Source of the DNA: a virus
Direction: 5' to 3' (one strand)
Length of the DNA stretch: 42,294 bases
IMG/VR virus record: IMGVR_UViG_3300037114_000021
Coordinates: 1 to 42,294 of that record
Shown here: positions 3,211-22,210 of the stretch, piece after piece
Position numbering within the stretch: position 1 is the stretch's first letter
How the letters are laid out: the number at the start of each line of letters is the position of its first letter
Program-made: the position numbers and the translations under genes
The notes under the pieces: model-generated
Told to the model about the DNA's origin: nothing
What the model saw: the letters and a program-made list of their open reading frames with translations, nothing else
Databases searched by the model: none

Positions 3211-3383
3211 CCCTTCCCCTCCAGCTCCGCCAGGAACTCACGGCAGGGGCAGACGGTCGCGCCGTCCTCCACGTGGTAAGTCCCCCGGGGGTATTGCCAC
3301 GTCCCGTTGGTGCAGCCCATGATGCTCCGGCTGTGCTGCCGCTTGCCATGCCCACAACGCTCGCAGAGTTGTGCGACGCTCAC
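3207..3383 (-). CDS. Small Cys/His zinc-binding protein
   Basis: 58 residues from GTG 3383, in GTGA overlap on both sides. Cys7-x2-Cys10-Gly-His12, His17, Cys24 and Cys45-Pro-Cys47 form a compact metal-site pattern. Its sister gene at 3636-3887 shows the same order (C...CGH...H...C...CxC). Such proteins are common in actinophages; their roles are mostly unknown. The flanking couplings make it convincing despite its length. Confidence 0.7.
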   Translation of the reverse strand: MSVAQLCERCGHGKRQHSRSIMGCTNGTWQYPRGTYHVEDGATVCPCREFLAELEGKG

Positions 3384-3559
3384 CCCTTCCCCTCCTGATG
3401 GGCCGGAAGGGCCAAATCAGCCATCGAGAACAGTTCCCGCGAGTCCTGCTGCCATCCGTAGTCCCGCTTGGTCCCCAGGACGAAGGACAATTCCCTCGCC
3501 ACGTCGGGAGGCATCCGGTAGACGACCATCCCCGCCTCGAACGAGATTCGCGTTGTCAC
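3380..3559 (-). CDS. Small hypothetical protein
   Basis: 59 residues from GTG 3559, which follows GGAGGAAGGG and overlaps the preceding 27-residue gene by 4 nt. The sequence is mixed (MVVYRMPPDVARELSF core) with no recognised family. Its last residues, PAHQEGKG, come from a repeated junction sequence that also supplies the next gene's Shine-Dalgarno. Confidence 0.6.
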   Translation of the reverse strand: MTTRISFEAGMVVYRMPPDVARELSFVLGTKRDYGWQQDSRELFSMADLALPAHQEGKG

Positions 3560-3639
3560 TTCCCTTCCTCCTGATGGGCCGGAACCGGATAGCCACGACC
3601 GCACCCTGGGCAGCGGTATTGAAAGCTGACCTCGGTCAT
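3556..3639 (-). CDS. 27-residue CxxC micro-protein
   Basis: ATG 3639 overlaps the upstream stop (ATGA) and the stop overlaps the next GTG. The peptide has a CPGC knuckle at residues 10-13 and ends PAHQEEGK. It is very short, but conserved coupling at both ends and the shared C-terminal tail support translation. It could dimerise around one zinc ion. Function unknown. Confidence 0.5.
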   Translation of the reverse strand: MTEVSFQYRCPGCGRGYPVPAHQEEGK

Positions 3640-4574: not shown

Positions 4575-5260
4575 GGCCGCGCGACCCCAGCCTGGTAGTA
4601 AGGCTCGAAGTACCGCAGCCCCACGTAGCACGGGGAGCCCCTGCGCTCTTTGCCGAGAGCGGGGGCCGCGTAGCTCTGACACCGAGGGCACCCCTGCTCG
4701 TGCATGAGCTGCTGCTGGGCCAGATCTAGTCTCGTCTGGTAGTGCGCTTCCTCGGCTTCTCTGGCAGACAACGTTGTCGAGCCCTTGTAGCCGTTCGTGT
4801 GCGGGTCGATGCCCTTCTCGGCGCAGGCGATGACCAGGCACTGCCATGCCCACTGGAGCGGCCCCGGTGTGTTTCTGCCGAGGTAGGCGGCTGGGTATCG
4901 GTTCTGGATCTGGTACTCGATCGCATCCCGTTCCACGGGGTCCAGGGCCGCGTACTGCGCCGCGAAGTCTGGCATCCCAGCCTTGGTCGGCTCGGCCTCC
5001 GGCGGGGGAGGGGGGAGAGCTTCGATCCGCTTCTGCCGGAGGTGGTCCTGCATCCGCTCGGCGAAGACGACCATCAGGCCGGCCAGAGTCGGGCGGTCCG
5101 ACCGCTTGGCGTAGACGCGCACCGCGTCGACGACGAGCCTTGGGTCTTCGTCCACGAACGCGAGACCCCACTCGGCTTTAACGCTGTCCTCGGCTAGGTA
5201 GGGGACGGGCCACGAGCTACGCACCACGCCCCACACGGAACTCCACTGCTGACCGGTCAT
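4571..5260 (-). CDS. Possible helicase-loader-like replication protein
   Basis: 229 residues. The N-terminal 75 residues (W..V......P........W...F.D.DP..V..AV..YA....RPTLAGL) resemble small helicase-loader or loader/inhibitor proteins of phages such as the SPP1 G39P type. This is a pattern judgement, not a proven hit. A Pro-rich linker follows, then a C-terminal CPRC and a later Cys that may bind zinc. The gene is coupled (ATGA) to the replisome-organiser-like gene upstream, an order usual for organiser/loader pairs. No helicase is present here, so a host helicase may be recruited. Confidence 0.5.
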   Translation of the reverse strand: MTGQQWSSVWGVVRSSWPVPYLAEDSVKAEWGLAFVDEDPRLVVDAVRVYAKRSDRPTLAGLMVVFAERMQDHLRQKRIEALPPPPPEAEPTKAGMPDFAAQYAALDPVERDAIEYQIQNRYPAAYLGRNTPGPLQWAWQCLVIACAEKGIDPHTNGYKGSTTLSAREAEEAHYQTRLDLAQQQLMHEQGCPRCQSYAAPALGKERRGSPCYVGLRYFEPYYQAGVARP

Positions 5261-6165
5261 TTCGGACCCCCATATGCGTATTCCAGGACTTCCAGATCCA
5301 TCGAGCCATCGGCAATCTGGCGGCGAAGCTCCTGGTCCTGCCGCCCGGGCTCACGGCCCGTGGGCCGAGTGCTCGGATCCAGCTCGTACCCGGCAAATGC
5401 CTCTAGGTTCTTGACGTTCTTGAACACGTACTCCCAGGTGTCGTACAGCGTGCCGCTCCTGTTCTGGCCCATGTGGACCGGCGAGTAGACGATCCCCCGG
5501 ATCCCAGCCGTGCAGTACTCGGCCCCGTGGCTCTTGAAGTACGGCGCGGCCAACTTTCGCCGGTCAGCCGTGAGCTGCGATCTTGGATGGCGCTCTCGAA
5601 AGACCTCGAAGGCCACGGCGATCTCATCGACCAGCGCAACCCGAGTGCTGCTGAGTACGGTCTCTGGTGTAGTTACGTCTATCCCCTTTCCCCTATCCCC
5701 TATCCCCTCAACTTTCGACATCCCATCCGGGATGCCATGCGGGATCGGATGCGGGATGGCATCGACACCCCATTCGGACGCTAGCTGCGGGTACTCAGCA
5801 GCGAACGCGGATCGGATCACCGGAGAACTGACCTGAGCCATTGCTCGCTTGGCGGATGGCAGCCAATTGGGCTTGGTCAGCAGGCCGTCGTGCTTGATGA
5901 GCGTCCGGAGCCAGACTTCCTCCTCTTCGGCGTCCAACACCAGGAAACGGGCATCAGCCAGAAGGGCGAGAGCTTCGCTCAGTTGCCTGACCGCGTACCC
6001 GAGCCGCTTGGCCCAGCGCGCGGCCCGGAATGGGATGGCACCGCACATCGTCAGATCAGCTTGCGTCGCCAGGAACAGGTAAGTCATACGAGCCCGCTCT
6101 GGCAGGGCCAGGAAGTCGGTGTCATCCCAAACCGAGCACTTGATGCGAGCCTCGGTCCGGCTCAC
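5257..6165 (-). CDS. Winged-helix replisome-organiser-like protein
   Basis: 302 residues. The N-terminal 90 residues (IKCSVWDDTDFLALP, then ARMTYLFLATQADLTMCG) match the start of phage HTH replication-initiation/organiser proteins. A low-complexity Pro/Gly linker follows near residues 135-155, then a conserved C-terminal helical domain. I chose GTG 6165, which forms a GTGA overlap with an 11-codon frame carrying a strong AGGAGG. An in-frame GTG at 6240, in GTGA overlap with the previous gene, would add 25 residues unlike the family. Confidence 0.6.
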   Translation of the reverse strand: MSRTEARIKCSVWDDTDFLALPERARMTYLFLATQADLTMCGAIPFRAARWAKRLGYAVRQLSEALALLADARFLVLDAEEEEVWLRTLIKHDGLLTKPNWLPSAKRAMAQVSSPVIRSAFAAEYPQLASEWGVDAIPHPIPHGIPDGMSKVEGIGDRGKGIDVTTPETVLSSTRVALVDEIAVAFEVFRERHPRSQLTADRRKLAAPYFKSHGAEYCTAGIRGIVYSPVHMGQNRSGTLYDTWEYVFKNVKNLEAFAGYELDPSTRPTGREPGRQDQELRRQIADGSMDLEVLEYAYGGPK

Positions 6166-6197
6166 GAGTCGTCGCCAAAGCGTATAAGGCCGTCCAC
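6162..6197 (-). promoter_or_regulatory. Leader ORF with strong Shine-Dalgarno
   Basis: An AGGAGGGGG sequence precedes GTG 6197, opening an 11-codon frame whose TGA overlaps the preferred organiser start at 6165 as GTGA. The downstream start itself lacks a good ribosome site. The likely role is to load ribosomes and pass them on by reinitiation. Confidence 0.4.
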
Positions 6198-6236
6198 CGT
6201 CCCCCTCCTGAGATATGTTTGTGAGCGTTAGACAGG

Positions 6237-6407
6237 TCACGTTTCGTTCTCAGCTACGCGGGCGGGACGTGACTTCCTGCGGAGCTTCCGGAACTCCCGC
6301 GCCAGCTCTCCCGCAGGACGGACCTGCTGGTAGCCCGTGGCCTCGTCGATCAGCGCCATCAACCCGATCTTCGCCGCGTCCATATCCACCGGCTCGCGCT
6401 CAGCCAC
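6237..6407 (-). CDS. Small helical protein
   Basis: 56 residues from GTG 6407, overlapping the preceding gene by 8 nt. The peptide has an acidic N-terminus and a basic C-terminus (FRKLRRKSR) and is predicted helical throughout. It is too short to place in a family. Its stop forms a GTGA with an upstream in-frame start of the organiser gene. Confidence 0.55.
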   Translation of the reverse strand: MAEREPVDMDAAKIGLMALIDEATGYQQVRPAGELAREFRKLRRKSRPARVAENET

Positions 6408-6621
6408 CGAACGTCACCCGCTGCCTATGGCTCCGACGCCAAGCACTGACGTGGGGGACAGGCTTACGCCCCTGACGGACCCACCTGCTGCTGTCTGAGG
6501 CATAGACCGCATGTGTCGGACAGCGGGCTCCTGTGGCCACTGGGACGGCACAGCGGACACACTGGCCGAGAGCTCGCCTAGCCCAATACCTAGCCCTGAC
6601 GCGCTGGGCTTGGAGACTCAC
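6400..6621 (-). CDS. Small basic zinc-knuckle protein
   Basis: 73 residues. Cys21-x2-Cys24 and Cys34-Pro-Thr-His37 form a compact C-x2-C-x9-C-x2-H knuckle. The flanks are rich in Arg, so nucleic-acid binding is plausible. GTG 6621 is in GTGA overlap with the preceding stop; the adjacent GTG 6624 would add one residue. No named family. Confidence 0.6.
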   Translation of the reverse strand: MSLQAQRVRARYWARRALGQCVRCAVPVATGARCPTHAVYASDSSRWVRQGRKPVPHVSAWRRSHRQRVTFGG

Positions 6622-6941
6622 CACTCAGTCCTAACTTCGACGTCGGGCCAGCCGCCGGCCGCCAACTCGTCCGCGACGAACTTCTGGAACTCCCAGTTGT
6701 CGGGCGCGGCTTCCTCGATCAGGACGCAGTACCAGGTGCGAGTAAGGGAGCGGCACCAGACGACCTCGACAACGCCCAGGTCGCCCCAGTTGATCGCCGC
6801 GTGCTCGAACCACCGCTGCGGACCACCTTCGGATCGGCTGACATCGCGCTGGGCGTGTGCGGCCTTGATCGCCGACTCCGCTGCGCTCTCGATCAGTCGC
6901 AACACGAGGTCGGCCGGGTTCGACGCTTTCGCCTCGCTCAC
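6618..6941 (-). CDS. Hypothetical protein
   Basis: 107 residues from GTG 6941, chosen for the GTGA overlap with the upstream gene; the longer frame reads through that gene. It has an N-terminal helix of about 30 residues, then a Trp/aromatic-rich beta-like half (WGDLGVVEVVW, WYCVLIEE) that looks like a small single-domain fold. Not recognised. Confidence 0.6.
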   Translation of the reverse strand: MSEAKASNPADLVLRLIESAAESAIKAAHAQRDVSRSEGGPQRWFEHAAINWGDLGVVEVVWCRSLTRTWYCVLIEEAAPDNWEFQKFVADELAAGGWPDVEVRTEW

Positions 6942-7135
6942 GGGAGGATCTCCAGCATAGGCTCGCCGTACAGGACCGTCTTTCCGCAGCGGGCACACAC
7001 GGTCACGTGTTGGCCATCGGCCAGTAGCAGCCAGGGCGTCCAGGCGTGGAATCCGAGCTGGCAGCTCTCCGCTCCCGTCTGCGCGTACTGCATCGCCATC
7101 AAGTCAGCGACTCCGGCCGGGAACTCTTCGCTCAT
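6938..7135 (-). CDS. Small zinc-ribbon-like protein
   Basis: 65 residues from ATG 7135 in ATGA overlap. Cys25, His30 and the CARCG knuckle at 47-51 form a C-x4-H...C-x2-C site. The Trp-rich middle (HAWTPWLLL) resembles short phage zinc proteins. Function unknown. It belongs to a run of four consecutive small genes around the G1 peptidase. Confidence 0.6.
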   Translation of the reverse strand: MSEEFPAGVADLMAMQYAQTGAESCQLGFHAWTPWLLLADGQHVTVCARCGKTVLYGEPMLEILP

Positions 7136-7329
7136 CCGACCACTCCCCGGAACCCGCTCGGAACGGCAAGCTGCGCCCAGCAGACGCGGGGATGCTCTAG
7201 CGCTTCTCTTCGGACGATCAGCTCTTGCTTGTTCAAGCCCCCTGCACCACAGGCTTGACATATCCACACATGACGCCAGCCGACCATCGTCTGGACGCGG
7301 TAGAGATACGTTCCGCTCCGCTCAGCCAT
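7132..7329 (-). CDS. Small zinc-ribbon-like protein
   Basis: 65 residues. ATG 7329 overlaps the peptidase stop by 8 nt (ATGGCTGA). Cys24-x2-Cys27 and a later His46/Cys50 give a likely zinc site; the N-terminus is beta-like (TYLYRVQTMVGWRHVW). It is directly coupled downstream of the G1 peptidase, so the two should be co-expressed. Whether they work together is unknown. Confidence 0.6.
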   Translation of the reverse strand: MAERSGTYLYRVQTMVGWRHVWICQACGAGGLNKQELIVRREALEHPRVCWAQLAVPSGFRGVVG

Positions 7330-8023
7330 AGCTCACGCTGAACCCGCTGGGCCCCACCGCAGACACCGTGTCCATTTGGACGCCGCGTTGGAACATGGTC
7401 CAACGCTCCCAGCCGTAGATCGGGCCGTTGGAGGTTTCAGCACCCCAGGTGGTGAGTTGGGAGAACCGTATCGGACTGAACCGGGCCAGCGGGTAGGGCG
7501 CATAGGGGGCAGCGGGCAATCCCGTGTCCTCGACCACCCACTCAGCCGTGTCGCCCACGCTGCTGAAGGGCTGTTCAGTCTCCCACGCGGCCCCGGTGTT
7601 ATCGTCCGACAGGCTCAGCGACCACTCACTCGGGGAAACCTCCTGCACCTCGGCCGTCAGCGTGTCCCCTGTCTGCACCGAAAGGGGAATCGTCTGGGCG
7701 GTGTAGTCCGTTGCCGAAGCGACCCAGAACGGCTCGATGAACTCCTCGCCGTCAGGCTCCATATACAGATTCACCCCAGCCTGGATAAGCGCGGGGTCTC
7801 CGATCCCTCCGACGCCAACCCACTCAGCCACGCTCGACAGCACCGATGCGGGGCGCAGGGATGGAATGGTGAAGTCGCCGGTAGCTTCCTTGAACGGACC
7901 TCCTGTGACGACGTACCCGGACCAGTTAGTCGACTCGTAGGTGGCATAGCTGCTTGCCATGACAGCGGGCGTGAGCGCGGCTGCCAGCAGGACGCCGAGT
8001 GCGAGCCTGATGGGGGTGTTCAC
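7322..8023 (-). CDS. Secreted glutamic peptidase, family G1 (eqolisin-like)
   Basis: 233 residues. Residues 1-23 are a signal peptide: Arg6, a hydrophobic core, then an AVMA cleavage site. The mature part follows the G1 layout: STNWSGYVV at 31-39, FTIPS, then EWVGVGG at 67-73, then ALIQAG with Gln81, then AEWVVED with Glu165. Gln81 and Glu165 align with the catalytic Gln53/Glu136 pair of scytalidoglutamic peptidase (ILQTG and AEFIIED). It should therefore be an exported acid-active endopeptidase. GTG 8023 is in GTGA overlap with the upstream gene and the stop overlaps the next start, so it is fully embedded in the early operon. The role in infection is unknown; surface-protein removal, superinfection effects or a host-fitness trait are possible. 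Confidence 0.8.
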   Translation of the reverse strand: MNTPIRLALGVLLAAALTPAVMASSYATYESTNWSGYVVTGGPFKEATGDFTIPSLRPASVLSSVAEWVGVGGIGDPALIQAGVNLYMEPDGEEFIEPFWVASATDYTAQTIPLSVQTGDTLTAEVQEVSPSEWSLSLSDDNTGAAWETEQPFSSVGDTAEWVVEDTGLPAAPYAPYPLARFSPIRFSQLTTWGAETSNGPIYGWERWTMFQRGVQMDTVSAVGPSGFSVSYG

Positions 8024-8400
8024 GGCGGCTCGGAGGGACTTAGTGCTTGAAGCTCTGCCCTGAGCGCCGCCCCGAGGCTTCTTCCGATCTCAATTCTTGT
8101 GCCGACGGCATTGATCTTGTGGCGCAGATAGCGCACCACCGACTCGGCCACCAGAGCTTCAGACTCTTGCTTCTCCACGGCGATCCGGGCCAAGTGGCGG
8201 CGCATGTCAACTGAACCTTCCGCGCCCACAAACGCCCGGCTCTCTGCCAGGTCAGCCTGCTGCCGCTTGACGGTCGCATCCATGTCGGCCTCCCGTAGCA
8301 GCCGGACGGTGTGCTCTAGGTCCCGGCCCAAGGCGGACAGCGAGAGGACTAGCTCGTTCGGTGTTAGCTGCGGCTCCCGCGTCCGCTGGGCCGTGCTCAC
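8020..8400 (-). CDS. Helical protein coupled to the ERF gene
   Basis: 126 residues from GTG 8400 in GTGA overlap with the ERF stop. It is almost entirely helical and ends in VGTRIEIGRSLGAALRAE. Similar helical proteins with a TRI-IGRS-type end accompany recombination genes in actinophages, as far as I recall. A role in single-strand annealing or exonuclease action is inference from position only. Confidence 0.6.
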   Translation of the reverse strand: MSTAQRTREPQLTPNELVLSLSALGRDLEHTVRLLREADMDATVKRQQADLAESRAFVGAEGSVDMRRHLARIAVEKQESEALVAESVVRYLRHKINAVGTRIEIGRSLGAALRAELQALSPSEPP

Positions 8401-9299
8401 ATCGGTATTTCCGTGTTGGCGAGCGCGCCCTGGATGCTCAGCCGGATCGACTCATCGAGTGCGTTCCACTCCATTTCCCGAAGCGCAGGCTTCCCGGCCA
8501 CGATCTTCAGAGCCGGAAGTGCGGAATGGGCTTGGAATATCTGCTCGGCCTCGTCCTTGCCGACAACTTCCAAGAGAGCCGCTGCACTCACCTCGCCGTG
8601 CTCTGGCTCTCCCTCCTCGCCCCACGCCTGTCCTCCCAGGCGGCTCTTGTACTGCTCCGTTGTCGTGTTCCACAGGGGCGTGATCCCGCACCGCCGGTCA
8701 CAGGCTAGGTACGGCTCGCCCTTCTTGCTCATCCTCTCACGCAAACGCCCATCACAGGCGTCGTCCGGGCAGTGGGGCGCTTCACCATCCTCGGTGGCTT
8801 TGTGGCCGTTCCCATCGGCTCTGGGAGTGGCCGCACGGGCCGGGGTAGCGCGGGCCGTGGTGACGGTCTCACCTGGCGACTCGTGGTCCGCGTCGTCTGT
8901 TGGGTCCGCCACCGCGAACAACTCGAAGATGGCGTACTTGAACGCGGCGGTCATGGCCTTGTTGCTGGCCTTGTCGGAGTAGTCCAGAGCTTCGCCCCAG
9001 GTGTCAAGCTCGATGAAGTCACCGCCGGGCCCGTAGACCTTGTACCCGACGTGGAGGTGGGCGCAATGCCCCACCGCGCCAGACTTGGCGACTCGCTCCT
9101 CGTACTCCCGCTCCAGGACGTGCGGCGCAAAGAACACCCCGTGCTTTGCCAGCAGGGGATGGACAGCCTTCAGGACGTCGTCGATGCCTCTGAAGTTGTA
9201 GCCTTGCTCCTTGTTGCGCTGGTTCTTCCCGATCCCCTCCAGCTCGGTCATGATCTGGCCGATGGCCTGATGGACCGTCGGCTTCGTTTCAGTAGTCAT
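8397..9299 (-). CDS. erf: ERF-family single-strand annealing protein
   Basis: 300 residues from ATG 9299 (GGAAGTGGGGAA upstream, ATGA overlap). Residues 8-135 match the ERF superfamily: YNFRGIDDVLKAVHPLL, FFAPHV, a YKVYGPGGDF strand, then SDKASNKAMTAAFKYA. ERF proteins form rings that anneal single-stranded DNA in phage recombination. After a linker, residues ~176-205 hold a Cys-rich zinc element (CPDDAC...CDRRC). The C-terminal helical part is not recognised. No partner exonuclease is evident. Confidence 0.9.
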   Translation of the reverse strand: MTTETKPTVHQAIGQIMTELEGIGKNQRNKEQGYNFRGIDDVLKAVHPLLAKHGVFFAPHVLEREYEERVAKSGAVGHCAHLHVGYKVYGPGGDFIELDTWGEALDYSDKASNKAMTAAFKYAIFELFAVADPTDDADHESPGETVTTARATPARAATPRADGNGHKATEDGEAPHCPDDACDGRLRERMSKKGEPYLACDRRCGITPLWNTTTEQYKSRLGGQAWGEEGEPEHGEVSAAALLEVVGKDEAEQIFQAHSALPALKIVAGKPALREMEWNALDESIRLSIQGALANTEIPM

Positions 9300-9511
9300 T
9301 TCCCCACTTCCTTCAGGAGCCGGTAGCGTGCTATCGGGCCCCCATGCTTGTGAACTCGGCACGTCTCCGAGACGATCTGCCAGCCATCGCGCCTTAGCTC
9401 GCTGACCCTGTTACGGGCGCAGTACCCCAGTTCCAGCGGTAGGTCTGCGATGCACAGACCCGACTTGGGATGCTTGCGCAGAGCTGTCAGGACCGCTTCC
9501 CGCTGCGTCAC
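9296..9511 (-). CDS. Small winged-helix-like DNA-binding protein
   Basis: 71 residues from GTG 9511, in GTGA overlap with the upstream gene. The layout is helix (REAVLTALRKH), LCIADLP turn, RNRVSELRRDGWQIVSE recognition helix and wing, then RYRLL. This is a winged-HTH pattern common in phage modulators. It directly precedes the ERF gene. The DNA target is unknown. Confidence 0.65.
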   Translation of the reverse strand: MTQREAVLTALRKHPKSGLCIADLPLELGYCARNRVSELRRDGWQIVSETCRVHKHGGPIARYRLLKEVGK

Positions 9512-10073: not shown

Positions 10074-10348
10074 GGCTCTCGCTCGAGGGTTTCTGGGTCC
10101 ACGAAGATGTTCTCCGCCTCGTCCCAACGGCGCATATCCCATGGCGGTGCCTCTTCGGGAAGAAGCCCCCCGGCTGCCCAATAACGCGTCGTCAGCTCTG
10201 CCCGCAGCTCGGGGAAAGCCGACGTCAGCTTGGCCGTGTTGTCGTCGTCTGCCTTGAGCATCGCCGCGAAGATGAGCGCGCTAAATGGCGGGTCGCCTTG
10301 GTGTAGCTTCAGCGCCTCGCGGTAGGCGTGCAGCCCCCCAGCGGCCAT
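10070..10348 (-). CDS. Hypothetical helical protein
   Basis: 92 residues from ATG 10348, which overlaps the upstream stop by 1 nt (TGATG). The central DPPFSALIFAAMLKADDDN and FPELRAELTTRYW segments resemble a small hypothetical protein frequent in actinophage early regions. Function unknown. Confidence 0.6.
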   Translation of the reverse strand: MAAGGLHAYREALKLHQGDPPFSALIFAAMLKADDDNTAKLTSAFPELRAELTTRYWAAGGLLPEEAPPWDMRRWDEAENIFVDPETLEREP

Positions 10349-11196
10349 CAGCGTGCCTCCTTCAGCGCAGCCCTGAGCCGCATGGTCAGCCTCCGATCCT
10401 GCCACTTGAGTTCAGCGGCCCCGGCAGCGTCCCTGGCAGCGGCCCAGGCAGCGGCCCTGGCAGCGAACCTGGCAGCGTCCCAGGCAGCGGCCCAGGCAGC
10501 GTCCCCGGCAGCGTCCCCGGCAGCGAACCTGGCAGCGAACCTGGCAGCGTCCCAGGCAGCGGCCCCGGCAGCGGCCCCGGCAGCGAACCTGGCAGCGTCC
10601 CTGGCAGCGGCCCTGGCAGCGTCCCAGGCACCGGCCCAGGCAGCGTCCCAGGCACCGGCCCAGGCAGCGTCCCAGGCACCGGCCCTGGCACCGGCCCAGG
10701 CAGCGTCCCTGGCAGCGGCCCCGGCAGCGGCCCTGGCAGCGGCCCTGGCAGCGGCCCTGGCAGCGGCCCTGGCAGCGTCCAACTCCTGCGTCGTGGCCTT
10801 CCCGTTGGCAAACTGTCGCGCGACCTCTATCGCCTTACGCGGCCTCGCGTCGCCCGGCACGGCCGCCTCAAAGAGAGGCAGCACCCGCTCGGCGCAGTCC
10901 GCCGAGAACAGCCGCAACTCCCGGCCCACGTCCACCGGACCCGCCAACCGGACCCGGCGCGTGGCGCAAGCCTTGTCGGTGTCGGTGAGCACCTGGCCCT
11001 CCAGCCGAACCCGGCTCACCCAGGGGCCGGGCGCGTAGCCCAGTGCGGCCAGGGGTGATTTGCAAGCATGCAGCCCGACCGCGCACAACTCTAACTTCGT
11101 GCCGCCGGGTAGCTCCTCGACGGGCTTGAGCGGCCAGCCGTCCCTGCCCGTGGTTCGGGTCTCCGTGAAGTGCCAACCCGTGTAGGTCTTGGTCAC
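10348..11196 (-). CDS. Alanine-rich tetrapeptide-repeat protein with conserved N-terminal domain
   Basis: 282 residues from GTG 11196 (GTGA overlap). Residues 1-135 form a folded-looking domain (WHFTET, LCAVGLHAC, RVRLEG), possibly like DUF7666; that label is from memory. Residues ~139-258 are about 30 near-perfect four-residue units such as AARA, AAWD, AARF and AAGA, encoded by a 12-bp DNA repeat. A short basic tail follows. The repeat should form a long alanine-rich helix with Arg, Trp, Asp and Phe at regular steps. Role unknown. Variable copy number is expected. Confidence 0.65.
   Translation of the reverse strand: MTKTYTGWHFTETRTTGRDGWPLKPVEELPGGTKLELCAVGLHACKSPLAALGYAPGPWVSRVRLEGQVLTDTDKACATRRVRLAGPVDVGRELRLFSADCAERVLPLFEAAVPGDARPRKAIEVARQFANGKATTQELDAARAAARAAARAAARAAAGAAARDAAWAGARAGAWDAAWAGAWDAAWAGAWDAARAAARDAARFAAGAAAGAAAWDAARFAARFAAGDAAGDAAWAAAWDAARFAARAAAWAAARDAAGAAELKWQDRRLTMRLRAALKEAR
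10423..10780. repeat. 12-bp tandem repeat array (about 30 units)
   Basis: Units of the form GGCAGCG-NCC-CN follow one another with few changes (plus-strand view). On the minus strand they encode the four-residue alanine-rich units of the 10348-11196 protein. Units vary at codons giving Arg, Trp, Gly, Asp or Phe. Confidence 0.85.
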
Positions 11197-11484: not shown

Positions 11485-11640
11485 TCAAGCCCTGCCGTAA
11501 GTCCGTTCGATGGGAACTGAGATCAGCCAATCTCGGCCCTTCCGCTCGGCCCGAATACGACCGACCTGGCAAAGCTCACGGACCCTGCGCTCGGACAGCT
11601 TCAGCACTATGGCCGCTTCCTTCACAGAGTACACCCTCAT
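11485..11640 (-). CDS. Excisionase/MerR-like helix-turn-helix protein
   Basis: 51 residues from ATG 11640. The sequence YSVKEAAIVLKLSERRVREL then VGRIRAERKGRDWLIS is the typical small HTH_17/excisionase domain. It is the first gene of the early block, directly after the late terminator and a TGC-TAGACT element 7 nt from the ATG. It could regulate early transcription or act as a recombination directionality factor; no integrase is in the window. The longer frame upstream runs through the terminator and is rejected. Confidence 0.75.
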   Translation of the reverse strand: MRVYSVKEAAIVLKLSERRVRELCQVGRIRAERKGRDWLISVPIERTYGRA

Positions 11641-11647
11641 GCGGAGC

Positions 11648-11653
11648 AGTCTA
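11648..11653 (-). promoter_or_regulatory. Probable extended -10 promoter of the early block (leaderless)
   Basis: On the minus strand TGC-TAGACT ends 7 nt before ATG 11640. This fits an extended -10 box with transcription starting at or next to the start codon. No convincing -35 is seen, since the upstream DNA is the terminator. The identical TAGACT hexamer with a TGN extension drives the rightward cassette at 30641. Confidence 0.45.
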
Positions 11654-11660
11654 GCAGACG

Positions 11661-11696
11661 CAAAGAAAGGCCGCCACCCCCGAAGGGATGACGGCC
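11661..11696 (-). terminator. Rho-independent terminator of the late block
   Basis: On the minus strand a 12-bp stem, GGCCGTCATCCC paired with GGGGTGGCGGCC (a few G-U pairs) around a TTCG tetraloop, is followed by TTTCTTT. It lies after the tRNA genes and just before the first early gene, so it separates late from early transcription. Confidence 0.85.
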
Positions 11697-11764
11697 AGTG
11701 GGCGCCCCGGTAGGGAACAGGGCGCACCGGGAAGGGGGTGAGAGAGAGCCGTGCTACTCAAAGA

Positions 11765-11845: not shown

Positions 11846-11931
11846 TGGCGGAGCGACCAGGGATCGAACCTGGGCAGCGTTGCCGCTGTACGGTTTAGCA
11901 AACCGCTGCATTGCCTCTCTGCCATCGCTCC
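11846..11931 (-). tRNA. tRNA-Ser (anticodon GCU)
   Basis: A complete class II tRNA of 86 nt. The acceptor is GGAGCGA/TCGCTCC with CCA encoded, the anticodon loop TTGCTAA gives GCU (AGC/AGU codons), the long variable arm is CAGCG-GCAA-CGCTG, and the T-arm is CCAGG-TTCGATC-CCTGG. It lies 1 nt downstream of the other serine tRNA and is likely co-transcribed with the late block. Confidence 0.95.
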
Positions 11932-11932
11932 A

Positions 11933-12018
11933 TGGCGGAAGCTAGAGGATTCGAACCCCTGCGGCTTTCACCGTCCAGTTTTCAAGACTGGTGCCTTCAA
12001 CCACTCGGCCAAGCTTCC
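11933..12018 (-). tRNA. tRNA-Ser (anticodon UGA)
   Basis: A complete class II tRNA of 86 nt. The acceptor is GGAAGCT/AGCTTCC with CCA encoded, the anticodon stem CCAGT/ACTGG encloses loop CTTGAAA (anticodon UGA), and it has a long variable arm and a T-arm with TTCGAAT. Its 5' end is 18 nt after the stop of the last late protein gene. Confidence 0.95.
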
Positions 12019-13521: not shown

Positions 13522-14229
13522 CTAGAGAGAATCTAGGTCCGTGTTGAGACTCGCCAGGTCGATGTGGAGTTCGTCTTGACCGCGTTCGACCATTTGACTC
13601 GGGATGATGGCCCACGCTTCCTCGAGGAAATGGGCCAGGAAGGGGTAGCTGACAGTAGCGATCCCTCCCCATGTGGCACACTCCAAGCCAGCCGAGTTGA
13701 ATCCCAGGGCGACGATGCAATGTCCCCCTTCGATGGGAGAGCCCGGGACATAGGTCCAGGGCTGGCCGTCTTGGAACTGCTGTTGGGCGCTTTGCGGGCA
13801 CTGGATGCCGAGATAGCACCCGCCGAAGAACGCCACCGCCTGGTGGAGCTCCACGATGCTATGGGGTCTGACTGGGGCGTATGCCTCGATCTTGTGACCG
13901 AACAGCCCCTTAGCCCGCCACAGCTGGAGCACGTCGGCCTCGTTGCAGCCGGTATCCTGCCCGCCAGTCTGGGCGAAGTAGGCCGTCTCGATCTCGTCTT
14001 GGTTCGGCTGCGGGTCCGTCTCGGACTCTTCCGCGTTCCACGCCCGGATCAGGTGATCCACACCCGCGTAGGTGCAGTCTCCCAGGGAGTCGTTACCGTC
14101 CATCGGGTAGGGAGTGTTTGGGACAGCCACAGAGGCCGGAGGGGGTGGCAGTTTACCCTTCGCGTAGACCGAGAGTTCTGAGAGACCAAATGGCCGTCGT
14201 GCTGGCAGCCGACCGAGCTTGAGATCCAT
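13522..14229 (-). CDS. Papain-like cysteine-peptidase-fold protein
   Basis: 235 residues from ATG 14229 (TGATG overlap). DSLGDCTYAG puts Cys52 at the head of a helix. GGHCIVALGF puts His170 at the start of a strand, and ATWGG (186-190) sits where papains have N-S-W-G. This order matches papain-like C1 folds, with the usual Asn replaced. No signal peptide or transmembrane segment. It may be a virion or lysis-linked peptidase, as it lies just after the holin candidate. Fold assignment is moderate; activity is uncertain. Confidence 0.55.
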   Translation of the reverse strand: MDLKLGRLPARRPFGLSELSVYAKGKLPPPPASVAVPNTPYPMDGNDSLGDCTYAGVDHLIRAWNAEESETDPQPNQDEIETAYFAQTGGQDTGCNEADVLQLWRAKGLFGHKIEAYAPVRPHSIVELHQAVAFFGGCYLGIQCPQSAQQQFQDGQPWTYVPGSPIEGGHCIVALGFNSAGLECATWGGIATVSYPFLAHFLEEAWAIIPSQMVERGQDELHIDLASLNTDLDSL

Positions 14230-14709: not shown

Positions 14710-15166
14710 TTGGGCCCTCCTGAATTAGAGCGACTGACCACGAAAGGTCAGCCGGCGAGGCAAACGGTCGGCGGGTCAGCGTGACGCCCGCTTGGGCGAA
14801 CGCCCAGCAGACGAGGCCGGAGCAGTCAACAGGCTGAAGGCGGGTGCGGCGCAGCAACTCGGCACCGACCAGCGGACGGTTCCAGTCGTGGGCGACGTCG
14901 TTCCAGCCGTATGGTTCGCCCAACCGCGTGAGCGCCCAAGCGACCGCAGTGAGAGCTTGCTCGGGCGAACAATCGACGGCGAACCAGTCCGCGTCTGGGT
15001 AGGTGTCCGCCGGAACGAGCCTGATCCCCTTGAACTCCTTGGCCTCCACCAGCTCGCCCGTCGGGGTCAGCATGGCGACGTGGGAATAAGGGCTGGAAGT
15101 GGCCCACTCGATCAGTTTTTCGACCGGACCCTTCCCGCGAACGAGCCGCAGGTCTCCGGGCTTCAG
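14702..15166 (-). CDS. Permuted NlpC/P60-type endopeptidase, apparent CTG start
   Basis: About 154 residues. The frame begins LKPGDLRLVRG, then WATSSPYSHVAML with His29, and later PVDCSGLVCWAFAQAG with Cys115. His-before-Cys order and the LKPGD...SHVAM start are typical of circularly permuted papain-fold (YiiX/YaeF-like) hydrolases. No ATG, GTG or TTG precedes this conserved part; the first ATG (15073) would remove His29. CTG 15166 overlaps the lysozyme stop as CTGA, like the ATGA/GTGA junctions elsewhere. The likely role is cutting peptidoglycan peptide bonds at lysis. The frame could instead be reached by a -1 shift from the lysozyme gene. Confidence 0.65.
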   Translation of the reverse strand: MKPGDLRLVRGKGPVEKLIEWATSSPYSHVAMLTPTGELVEAKEFKGIRLVPADTYPDADWFAVDCSPEQALTAVAWALTRLGEPYGWNDVAHDWNRPLVGAELLRRTRLQPVDCSGLVCWAFAQAGVTLTRRPFASPADLSWSVALIQEGPSA

Positions 15167-15975
15167 GGGAACGGTAGTCCGAGCTGGGCCGCTGTTGCGG
15201 CGTTTGCTGGGGTGCCGAAGGCCATCGGATCGGCGACGGGTGCGGTCGCCGCGTTCCAGACATGAGGTGGCTTGCTACCAGCGACAGCCCCGACGGCCAG
15301 CGCATCGGCCTGCTGCGCCGCGCTCTCAAGCCATCGGAAGGTGGTTAGCCCATCACCGGCGAATGAGGCGACCGCGCCGTGGACGTTCTTGGCATAGAAG
15401 ACGACTAGCATTTTCCCCTCCTTTGGTGTTGGTGCGGGGGGATCTGTCCCCAAGATCGCTGAGTTGAAGTAGTCCACGTCCACGCTGCCCGAGAATCCAG
15501 CCAAACTGGAGCCGAGCGAGATCTGGGTCGCGAAGTCCGGCGCGACGAGCCCCTTGGCTCCGGGTCGAGACGTCCACTGGCGCCCCAACGGCCCGGTAAC
15601 CTCAAGGTAGTAGCCGTCGCTGTAACGAAGGGCCAACGGGCCGGCCAGCTTGAGGAACTCCAGCATCCACGGCTTGTTGATCTCGGACTCGTCATCCACC
15701 ATCGGCGGAAGGTTCGTGTTGGCCGTGTCGGCCCAAGCCTTGAAATAGGCCCACTGCGTAGCTGCAGAGCTTGACGCGGGCTCCGAGAAGTGGTAGGCAC
15801 CGACGGCAATCCCTGCCCGTCTGGCTCCTTCCACCTGGCTGACGTACACCGGACTCCGGTAAGTGACTCCCTGAGTCGCTTTCACATAGGCCACGCGGAC
15901 CCCGGCTTTGTAGGCTTCGGCCCAGTCGATGGGGCCGTTGTTGGAGCTGACATCAACACCGAGAACTTGGGTCAT
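15163..15975 (-). CDS. GH25 lysozyme (endolysin)
   Basis: 270 residues. Residues 4-190 match GH25 muramidases: GVDVSSNNGPIDW with Asp8, VKATQG, GAYHFSEP, the acidic VDDE cluster (Asp94/Glu96 as the D-x-E pair) and VDYFNSAI. The C-terminal ~80 residues after a Pro linker are unrecognised and may bind cell wall. There is no signal peptide, so release needs a holin. ATG 15975 has GGAGGGGGCG upstream, inside the end of the preceding zinc gene. The stop forms a CTGA with the endopeptidase frame. Confidence 0.9.
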   Translation of the reverse strand: MTQVLGVDVSSNNGPIDWAEAYKAGVRVAYVKATQGVTYRSPVYVSQVEGARRAGIAVGAYHFSEPASSSAATQWAYFKAWADTANTNLPPMVDDESEINKPWMLEFLKLAGPLALRYSDGYYLEVTGPLGRQWTSRPGAKGLVAPDFATQISLGSSLAGFSGSVDVDYFNSAILGTDPPAPTPKEGKMLVVFYAKNVHGAVASFAGDGLTTFRWLESAAQQADALAVGAVAGSKPPHVWNAATAPVADPMAFGTPANAATAAQLGLPFP

Positions 15976-18901: not shown

Positions 18902-21900
18902 TCATGTCAGCTTTGCGGCCAGCTGTCCGTCCCAGCTCTCGGCTTCCAGAGTGCCGTCCGTCGAAGTAGCGGCCAACTGTCCATCCCACGCGTAGACGTT
19001 GAAGTACAGGAAGATCGGGACCGCGACGTAGGTGTGCCCACTCGCTTGAAGAAGAAGCGCCCCCAGCGCGATGTCAACCCACCCGAAGGTGGTCCGCGTC
19101 CCCTGGGCTTGCAGGCTCAGCGAAGCTAGAGCGACGACCGCCTGACCCTTGGCGGTGCGCTTCCCCGTTGCCAAGAGGCTCAGGATGGCGAGAGCTACGA
19201 CCGCATGGCCGAATGTCGTCCGTTTGCCCGAAGCTGTAGTGGAGATCCCACCGATTCCGACGCTGGCCGAGCCCAGGACCGTGACTTTCCCCGTGGCAAC
19301 AGTCGAGAGTGCGCCGAGGCTGACCGAGGCAACTCCGGTGACCCGGACGCCGGTGGTGGTACCCGTAGCCGCCACGCTCAGCCCACCGAGGGCGATACTG
19401 GCCGTGGCGAAGGTCGTGCGTTTGCTGGTTGCGGTGACGCTCAGAGACCCCAGGGAGACACTCGCTGCGCCAACTGGGGTTGAGGACGCAGTGACCGACA
19501 GAGCGCCGAGCGCGACCGATGCGTGGCCGATGCCGGTGTGCAGACTTGTGGCCGCAAGGTCGAGCGAGCCGACTGCGACCGAAGCGGATCCGAGGACCGT
19601 GACCTTCCCGGTGGCCGTCAGCGACAGAGCGCCCAAGGGAACCGACGCGACTCCCGTGATCGTGCCCGAGACCGATCCGGTTGCGGTGACGGACAGGGAT
19701 CCCAGCGGGACGGAAGCCGTCGCGAAGGTGGTGCGCTGACTCGTTGCCGCGACGCTCAGCGAGCCAAGCCCGACCGATGCCACCCCCGGGACCGTCACCG
19801 TGCCGGTTGCAGTGACCCCTACCGCTCCCAAGGGGACGCTAGCGACTCCGAGGACCGTTACCTTGCTGGTGGCCGCTACAGAGAGGTTCCCTAGCGGAAC
19901 CGATGCGGTCCCAAACGTGGTCCGCTTGCCAGTGGCGACAACGCTCAGGGAGCCCAGCGAGACTGAGGCCGAGCCCTGCAACTGGCCGATGGCCGTGACG
20001 CTCAGAGCGCCAAGAGGGACAGACGCAGTGGCAAAGGTCGTGCGCTGGCTCGTTGCCGAGACGGACAACGCCCCTAGCGAGACGCTGGCCGAGCCCAGGA
20101 CCGTGACCTTGCCGGCTGCAGTGACCGCTAAGGCCCCCAGGGGGACGCTGGCGCGTCCAAGGCCCGTGTGCAGGCTCGTGGCCGCTACGGTCAGCCCACC
20201 GAGGGGGACTGAGGCGGTGCCAGTGACCAAGACCCCGGTGGTGGTCCCGGTGGCCGCGACGGATAGGCCACCCAGGTTGACCGAGGCCGCCCCGTAGACC
20301 GTACTGGGTGCGGCGCCGAATGAATCGAGCACCTGAGCGGTCGAGTTGGGCAGTCCGGATATGAAGAGGTTGAACGTGGACACGCCGCCAACCCAAAGCA
20401 CCAGCTGGACGTTATTGGTCTTCGCCCAGGAGGCTATCTCGGCGAAGAAGTACGGATCGTCATCCGTTCCGCCTTCAGCAGGGAAGCTACCCGCCAAGGG
20501 CCACGCCCCAATCTCGGGGAACAGCATGGGCTTGCCGAGATACGCGGCGTACCCCGCGAACCACTCCAGGCCGTATTCCGAGAGTCCGGTTCCAGGAGAC
20601 GAGAACGGCGCGGACTGAGTCAGAAGCTGGGTCCAGAAGCTGGGTTCGGTGGGATTCGCCCCCCCGCTTCCGCCGTACTTCTGGGCGTAGGTGTCACCAC
20701 CAACGAGGTCCACATACGCGGAACCCGGATAGAACGTGGTCATATCCGGCTTCCCGCCGTCCACGTTTAGAATCGGGTTCCAGGCGGTCTTAAGGCCGTA
20801 GGCGTGAGCCAACGGCGCAACGTGTTGCCAGAGCAGGACGTAGTTGGCGGCGGTTGTGTACGTGTGGGACCAGCAGTACGAAGTGCCGTTGAACTCGTGG
20901 CCGAGCCGGACAATGCCTTCCGAATCGAGCGAAGCTATGGCCGCAAAGACCGCGTTGAAGTCTGTGTCGTAATCGCCGGCGAGAACGTTCGCGACCGTGT
21001 AGGTTCCGGTTGGAGCGCCCGTCCCGTTGGAGTTACCGCTCCACAGAAGCGGGACCACGAAGACGTAGTGCGCCCCGACAGGCCCGTTGGCAGCCCATCC
21101 GGACACAACAGCATGGGAACCCATGACGCTTGGACTGGTGGCGTCCAGATAGTCCGAGACGACCGGCTGGTAGCCCAACTCCCCGGCGATGGTCGCCATG
21201 CGGGAATAGCCTTCGAAGCCGGTGTAGAAACCCACCGGGTTGGCCACCACTCCCGTGGCGACCACACCGAGGGACCCGAGGGAGACTGAGACCGAGCCGA
21301 TGCCGGTGTGCTTGCTGGTGGCCGCCAGGTTCAGCACACCGAGGGCGACCGAGGCATGGCCGAATGTGGTCCGCTGACCCGTCGCGGTGGCAGACAGCGC
21401 CCCCAGGGATACCGAAGCGCTGCCCGTGATCGTCGGAGCGGTGACGGTACCGGTCGCGGAGACCGAGAGGGTGCCAAGGGCTACAGCAGCGGTCCCGAAT
21501 GTGGTCCGCTGGCTGGTTGCGGCCAGGGCTAGCGTGCCGAGGCTGACGGATGCGGTGCCGGTCACTGTGACGGACGCTGGCGCCAGGACGACTATCGCCG
21601 CACTGGCCGCAGCCGCTCCCGACCACGAGTAGGTTGCTGTGGTCGAGCCGCTTCCAGTCGGCAGAATGTAATCTGCCGCGACGTTCCGAGCGGTGGCGGA
21701 TGAAAGGTCGTTAGCCCCAAGCGAAGTCGTCGCGGCACCATTGGACCATGTGGTCGCGTTGATGGTGGAGTTGCCGACGTTACCCGCAGCCAGGACAAGC
21801 TGGCCGGCGGTGTAGCTCTCACTCGGCGTGGTGAGGGTCGTGACGCCAGTGGATGAATCTGTGATCCCGGCGACCACGAGAGGTGTTGAGGACGCTAGTA

Positions 21901-22210
21901 CCCCCGAGAACATCCCAAGGGTGTACGTGCCGAGGGTTAGCCCGGAAACATACGTGGCCGTGATGGTCGTGTCGCCCGCAGCGCAGTTGTAGCCGATGAA
22001 GACCTGGAGTTCAGGCGAGTACGCCTCGCTGTACTCGGCCTCAGTCCATGTGGCCCCGGCACCTGTTATCGCAAGCGCGCCCGCTCCGGTCCCCTTGAAG
22101 GCGATCGCTATGAAGATGCAGTCGTAGAGCTGAGTGGTCTGGGGGAGGGTTATCGCTACCCCGGTTGCGGGCAGGAGACCCTGCTGCTGGTTCTCCTCGA
22201 GGATCGCCAA
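18902..22210 (-). CDS. Giant tail-tip repeat protein with embedded GH26-like glycosidase domain
   Basis: 1102 residues. An N-terminal domain of about 210 residues is followed by five repeats of ~20 residues (pattern ASVSLG-LSVAATG). Then comes a catalytic domain at ~327-628, about 20 more repeats to ~1062, and a C-terminus with WDGQLAA twice. The catalytic domain looks like GH26 (beta-mannanase clan): RLGHEFNG...CW with Glu439 as acid/base, and FPEIGAW with Glu566 as nucleophile. It probably degrades a host surface or capsule glycan during adsorption. The start is TTG 22210, the only one in frame; an SD-led 7-codon ORF ends just before it. The repeats suggest stalk-like spacing and copy-number variation. 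Confidence 0.75.
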   Translation of the reverse strand: MAILEENQQQGLLPATGVAITLPQTTQLYDCIFIAIAFKGTGAGALAITGAGATWTEAEYSEAYSPELQVFIGYNCAAGDTTITATYVSGLTLGTYTLGMFSGVLASSTPLVVAGITDSSTGVTTLTTPSESYTAGQLVLAAGNVGNSTINATTWSNGAATTSLGANDLSSATARNVAADYILPTGSGSTTATYSWSGAAAASAAIVVLAPASVTVTGTASVSLGTLALAATSQRTTFGTAAVALGTLSVSATGTVTAPTITGSASVSLGALSATATGQRTTFGHASVALGVLNLAATSKHTGIGSVSVSLGSLGVVATGVVANPVGFYTGFEGYSRMATIAGELGYQPVVSDYLDATSPSVMGSHAVVSGWAANGPVGAHYVFVVPLLWSGNSNGTGAPTGTYTVANVLAGDYDTDFNAVFAAIASLDSEGIVRLGHEFNGTSYCWSHTYTTAANYVLLWQHVAPLAHAYGLKTAWNPILNVDGGKPDMTTFYPGSAYVDLVGGDTYAQKYGGSGGANPTEPSFWTQLLTQSAPFSSPGTGLSEYGLEWFAGYAAYLGKPMLFPEIGAWPLAGSFPAEGGTDDDPYFFAEIASWAKTNNVQLVLWVGGVSTFNLFISGLPNSTAQVLDSFGAAPSTVYGAASVNLGGLSVAATGTTTGVLVTGTASVPLGGLTVAATSLHTGLGRASVPLGALAVTAAGKVTVLGSASVSLGALSVSATSQRTTFATASVPLGALSVTAIGQLQGSASVSLGSLSVVATGKRTTFGTASVPLGNLSVAATSKVTVLGVASVPLGAVGVTATGTVTVPGVASVGLGSLSVAATSQRTTFATASVPLGSLSVTATGSVSGTITGVASVPLGALSLTATGKVTVLGSASVAVGSLDLAATSLHTGIGHASVALGALSVTASSTPVGAASVSLGSLSVTATSKRTTFATASIALGGLSVAATGTTTGVRVTGVASVSLGALSTVATGKVTVLGSASVGIGGISTTASGKRTTFGHAVVALAILSLLATGKRTAKGQAVVALASLSLQAQGTRTTFGWVDIALGALLLQASGHTYVAVPIFLYFNVYAWDGQLAATSTDGTLEAESWDGQLAAKLT
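19025..20299. repeat. Coding repeat array, about 20 units of ~60-66 bp
   Basis: The minus strand encodes roughly 20 successive ~20-residue units with the core ASVxLGxLSVxATG, alternating with connectors such as KVTVLG and RTTF. Some units are very similar and invite recombination or mis-assembly. Confidence 0.8.
21248..21565. repeat. Coding repeat array, five units
   Basis: Five units of the same ASVSLG/LSVAATG type lie before the GH26-like domain, encoded on the minus strand. They match the longer array after the domain, so the glycosidase is framed by one repeat family. Confidence 0.75.

Follow-up and report, generated by a model that had tools for sequence, protein, structure and literature searches.

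The window analysed here, an entire 42,294-base IMG/VR virus record, encodes a member of the rare acid-protease family G1 of glutamic peptidases (Peptidase_A4, eqolisins), for which to our knowledge only fungal, bacterial and archaeal members had been described. The protein retains the catalytic Gln/Glu pair, carries valine in place of the glutamate that supports the catalytic Gln, and is probably exported. The enzyme family is known; new are its carrier and the change in a residue that supports the active site. G1 genes occur in at least three tailed-phage settings, in one of which the gene is fixed in a clade under purifying selection. Exported acid proteases thus seem to be among the products of phages, which raises the question of what a phage gains from cutting proteins outside the cell.

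Phage record and location of the G1 gene

The window encodes a large terminase (TerL), a portal, a head protease, a major capsid protein, a tape measure and tail proteins. With 52% identity of its terminase to the one of Corynebacterium phage Juicebox and 55% identity of its capsid protein to the one of Mycobacterium phage Bernal13, the window is an actinophage-like siphovirus; the nearest phages infect Mycobacteriales. A single excisionase-like HTH protein is encoded, and integrases of the tyrosine or serine families (PF00589/PF00239) were not found in the record, which may be incomplete. The phage therefore need not be temperate, and the prophage origin contemplated when the sequence alone was read is unsupported.

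The G1 gene had been correctly delimited in that sequence-only reading and lies on the minus strand, between the genes for the Erf-type annealing protein and the replication initiation protein (Table 1), in a block that also contains an exonuclease gene. It overlaps the upstream gene by 4 nt (GTGA) and the downstream gene by 8 nt, confirming the proposed coupling on both sides. Since the overlaps involve phage genes on either side, a host flank or a chimeric contig as source of the G1 gene is excluded. The further proposal that the gene belongs to an early operon holds for its location among replication genes (Erf, exonuclease, replication initiation); early expression would follow from this position only. 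A promoter search gave no match.

Table 1 Features of the G1 gene, its product and selected genes of the window
Feature	Position	Strand	Basis
G1 (Peptidase_A4/eqolisin) family protein, 233 aa	7322..8023	(-)	GTG start at 8023, TGA 7324-7322
Predicted signal peptide, aa 1-23 (MNTPIRLALGVLLAAALTPAVMA, then SSYATYES-NWSGY)	7955..8023	(-)	hydropathy; cleavage by (-3,-1) rule
Gln81, position of SGP catalytic Gln53	7781..7783	(-)	phmmer alignment; invariant in 22- and 44-row alignments
Val101, Glu69 position	7721..7723	(-)	44-row alignment; profile without window protein; hairpin register
Ala104, Pro72 position (70's loop)	7712..7714	(-)	44-row alignment; profile without window protein
Glu165, position of SGP catalytic Glu136	7529..7531	(-)	phmmer alignment; invariant in 22- and 44-row alignments
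Upstream overlapping gene, phage family phrog_23922	8020..8400	(-)	PHROG E 1.2e-9
Erf-type single-strand annealing protein	8397..9362	(-)	PF04404 E 5.5e-20; phrog_155 E 3.5e-28
Downstream overlapping small gene, 65 aa, CxxC motif	7132..7329	(-)	ORF list and sequence
Replication initiation protein	5257..6240	(-)	phrog_3171 E 1.4e-32
GH25 endolysin	15163-15975		
Excisionase-like HTH, single	11485-11727		

Family membership and predicted fold

The protein matches PF01828 (Peptidase_A4/G1) with 88 bits (E 7.5e-25; curated cut-off 22.3 bits) over the complete model (positions 1-206 of 206), bearing out the G1/eqolisin identity that had been read from its motifs. With a G1 profile of 21 homologues from which the window protein was left out, it was the only match (E 4e-39) among the ORFs of all six reading frames of the window; a search of NCBIfam found nothing. 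The AF2 model (22 sequences; pLDDT 85.6, pTM 0.81) comprises 14 strands, in keeping with the two seven-stranded antiparallel sheets of scytalidoglutamic peptidase (SGP). In a Foldseek search against PDB, SGP was the top match (2ifw, E 4.4e-12, TM 0.79-0.81 by target) and aspergilloglutamic peptidase (AGP) came next; the fold also resembles that of lectins and glucanases. The outcomes that the sequence-only reading had named as refuting it did not arise, the profile match being strong and the predicted fold that of G1. Membership of the protein in family G1 is firm.

Active site

Residues were compared in a 44-row alignment (43 homologues and the window protein) and in a 22-row alignment; Gln53, Glu136, Glu69 and the further reference positions follow SGP numbering. 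All landmarks that had been named are in place, i.e., NWSGY (residues 33-37), EWVGVGG (67-73), Gln81 within IQAG, and AEWVVED (160-166) with Glu165, and the proposed catalytic pair coincides with the SGP dyad in the phmmer alignment to SGP. The conserved glycines G8, G41, G44 and G55 as well as Trp39 are present as Gly36, Gly70, Gly73, Gly83 and Trp68. Dyad, Trp68 and the four glycines are kept in every covering row of the 44-row alignment. The catalytic pair of AGP is formed by Gln B24 and Glu B110, the latter bonded to Trp B10, and the oxygens of the pair lie about 4.8 A apart (PMC8147669); the equivalent of Trp B10 is the retained Trp68.

The surroundings of the dyad are changed. At the Glu69 position, all covering rows of the 44-row alignment contain Glu except the window protein (Val101) and the G1 protein of a second phage record, L112 (Thr). 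Both proteins have Ala at the Pro72 position. Trp67 is replaced by Phe99, an exchange that occurs in natural eqolisins. Asp43 of the WVG-D-G turn corresponds to Gly72, and G43 is listed among the accepted substitutions for Asp43 (PMC6154417). Glu69, however, is reported to be strictly conserved in functional eqolisins and to help Trp67 position the catalytic Gln53, and replacement of Pro72 has been argued to impair function (PMC6154417). With the equivalents of Glu69 and Pro72 lost, catalytic competence is not to be taken for granted; with the dyad retained, peptidase activity is probable. We thus regard peptidase activity of the window protein as likely, not assured. Loss of Glu69 with retention of the dyad represents a natural experiment on the residues truly needed for G1 catalysis.

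Assignment of Val101 to the Glu69 position is supported by the hairpin register (79-88/94-103) in two models, one of which, alignment-free and of low confidence (pLDDT 32.7), shows the hairpin at 80-88/94-102. The phmmer alignment places Glu97 at this position, a register judged less likely because both the conserved D/N-G turn of the hairpin and the profile that leaves out the window protein favour Val101.

N terminus and export

The N terminus is signal-like, in agreement with the signal peptide noticed earlier: its 12-residue hydrophobic stretch, LALGVLLAAALT, ranks first in hydropathy among the N-terminal regions of all genes of the window. The first 20 residues have low pLDDT in the AF2 model. 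Of the 32 residues ahead of NWSGY, about 23 form the predicted signal peptide and about 9 lie between the likely cleavage site and NWSGY. Eqolisins are made as pre-pro precursors in which about 55 extra residues precede the mature enzyme (PMC6154417), and the short distance in the window protein leaves no room for a full pro-segment. Judged from its N-terminal sequence, the protein is probably exported via a Sec-like signal peptide.

G1 genes in other phages

No G1 gene was found in 50,697 GenBank phage records by tblastn with four queries, at settings under which the window query does recover plasmid G1 genes. The predicted viral structures of BFVD contained no comparable match (best E 2.6e-5, TM at most ~0.4, sandwiches of tail-fibre and coat proteins). 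Single-sequence searches of viral and genome contigs yielded no close relatives of the window gene, so that alignment-based scans were needed. Scans of IMG/VR with degenerate patterns, which are not exhaustive, revealed two further tailed-phage settings with a G1 gene. The survey of phage genomes that had been advised was accordingly negative for GenBank and positive, with two other lineages, for IMG/VR; the phage location is unexpected, as had been stated, but not unique.

One of the two settings is a 54 kb tailed-phage record (L112/L113) with terminase and portal, in which the G1 gene lies on the opposite strand and adjoins tail and lysis-region genes. The other is a podovirus-like clade (L020-L030, L162-L174; portal phrog_156, capsid phrog_1357) with the gene in about 17 contigs. 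The G1 proteins of this clade resemble the window protein in their match to PF01828, their hydrophobic N terminus and their tailed-phage carrier. They differ from it in their canonical active site, a Cys-containing segment after the signal, the gene location between portal and scaffold in all contigs that include both flanks (e.g., L022:5219-6016), a G+C content of ~0.44 and a separate branch in the G1 tree. The clade's G1 gene is under purifying selection (pairwise dN/dS ~0.1), and a G1 gene can thus be a selected phage gene. Between some members, G1 diverges far more than portal or capsid; L022 and L029, for example, share 91% identity in the portal and only 52% in G1.

An insert whose opposite strand encodes an endonuclease ORF (PHROG: HNH) splits the major capsid gene of L022 (L022:8921-10696), and split capsid genes are seen in further members of the clade.

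The closest capsid relative in IMG/VR (L111) had no G1 match. A further G1-bearing contig (L019, gene at L019:7014-8705) was considered as a phage and set aside as probably plasmid-like, with genes for ParA, SSB, a DNA polymerase and a conjugation-ATPase-like protein; a portal was not found in it using a portal family that also missed the other phage records.

Origin of the phage G1 genes

In a G1 tree of 41 rows, the window protein and that of L112 are sisters (92/75) and stand beside G1 proteins of Acidimicrobiaceae (96/87), while the podovirus clade is placed apart (100/100), next to other actinobacterial proteins. Owing to the long end branch of the window protein (2.11), its exact place is unsure. 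The two separate branches suggest that phages acquired G1 genes at least two times. The G1 profile had matches in 11 of 396 genomes drawn from a single actinobacterial phylum. Acidimicrobiaceae genomes, of which one comes from a bog, are among the nearest cellular relatives.

Comparison with known glutamic peptidases

The window protein has the same fold and Gln/Glu pair as SGP (scytalidopepsin B, G01.001; 2IFW, 1S2B) and AGP (G01.002; 1Y43), and likewise a Trp beside the Glu, the conserved glycines and an export signal. It differs from both in sequence (~20% identity), in lacking a full pro-segment and cysteines, and in residues (Glu69=Val, Trp67=Phe, Asp43=Gly, Asp57=Asn, Pro72=Ala). Bacterial G1 proteins (pepG1 of Alicyclobacillus, PMC3009609; Acidimicrobiaceae L008, L009, L011) match the profile as the window protein does and share its long catalytic hairpin, Gly at position 43 and absence of disulfides, whereas Glu69 is kept where covered and Pro72 in nearly all of them. 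The Acidimicrobiaceae proteins furthermore have long extra N-terminal regions, in contrast to the window protein.

Glutamic peptidases of a different kind are also encoded by viruses. The self-cleaving appendage protein of phage phi29 (MEROPS G2) is one of these; it processes viral proteins and is not an exported G1 enzyme. We know of no sequence homology of the window protein to the phi29 protein or to the glutamic protease of strawberry mottle virus, and both are set apart here by description. The strawberry mottle virus enzyme, like the window protein a virus-encoded glutamic peptidase, processes viral proteins and is not an exported G1 enzyme; as of 2019, no other viral protease of this fold had been reported (PMC6357015). 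The open-licence literature searched for phage G1 peptidases, Peptidase A4 or PF01828 contained no phage case.

Proposed function

The best explanation as a whole, held with middling confidence, is an exported G1 peptidase that acts outside the infected cell and may alter surface or nearby proteins. The gene would have come, probably from a soil actinobacterium, into a tailed phage with an actinobacterium-like host and been retained inside the replication/recombination block, so that the product may be made together with the other proteins of the replication module. Following export by the Sec route with its 23-residue signal peptide, the protein, lacking a full pro-segment, would adopt the two-sheet G1 sandwich on the outer side of the membrane. 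There, Glu165 would activate water and Gln81 stabilise the transition state, as described for SGP and AGP, and proteins outside the infected cell would be cleaved under acid surroundings. As the protein is presumably made with the replication block, one may speculate that its most likely use is a change of surface or nearby proteins that keeps out competing phages or prevents the trapping of released virions.

It is possible, if doubtful, that the exported protein binds a surface protein or a sugar without cutting, its concanavalin-like sandwich serving as a binder. The replacements at the Glu69 and Pro72 positions (Val and Ala here, Thr and Ala in L112, with Glu69 kept in the other covering homologues), the long end branch and the resemblance to lectins and glucanases are consistent with such a role; drift after loss of catalysis, however, should have hit the dyad too, and Gln81, Glu165, Trp68 and Gly36/70/73/83 are all kept. 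A rather unlikely elaboration is that the window/L112 branch constitutes a phage-adapted subfamily, in which replacement of the Glu69 support of the Gln went along with changed specificity or with binding directed at competing phages or host surface proteins.

Two other uses were considered. The protease might feed an acid-soil host during residence of the phage, in the manner of lysogenic conversion, to which the Acidimicrobiaceae (one bog genome) among the nearest cellular relatives and the moron-like L112 gene, which stands by itself amid late genes in the opposite orientation, would conform. We consider this improbable for the window gene, which overlaps replication-module genes on both sides in a record, possibly incomplete, in which no PF00589/PF00239 integrase was found. 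An envelope-directed enzyme that aids lysis and release by cutting envelope proteins appears very improbable: the L112 gene does lie beside tail and lysis-region genes, and the podovirus-clade gene resides in a head-gene block expected to be late, but the window gene is far from the GH25 endolysin gene and sits with replication genes.

Further features of the phage records

Two neighbouring tRNA-Ser genes (anticodons GCT and TGA) are located at 11846-12018 (-). An Imm5-like protein (10348-11196, minus strand) ends in an Ala/Arg-rich tail encoded by ~30 copies of a 12-nt repeat (repeats 10341-10861); a similar protein, with an Ala-rich repeat of its own, is encoded at L112:2901-3671. Common to both G1-bearing actinophage-like records are also phrog_19005 proteins (13522-14229 (-) and L112:4924-5688 (-)), which have GDC and GGHC motifs and the look of papain-type cysteine peptidases, with no Pfam match. 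The 1102-residue tail protein at 18902-22210 (-) contains a GH26-like domain amid many repeats of the type ASVSLGALSVTATG.

A 36-nt inverted repeat has its arms (6818-6853 and 19062-19097; 92% complementary) 12 kb apart, one within the ORF at 6618-6998 and the other within the tail protein gene. Finally, a 40-nt direct repeat with AGGAGG on the minus strand occurs at 2392-2431, 3373-3412 and 3549-3588; it is perhaps a start-associated sequence, and the start codons of ORFs near it may need revision.
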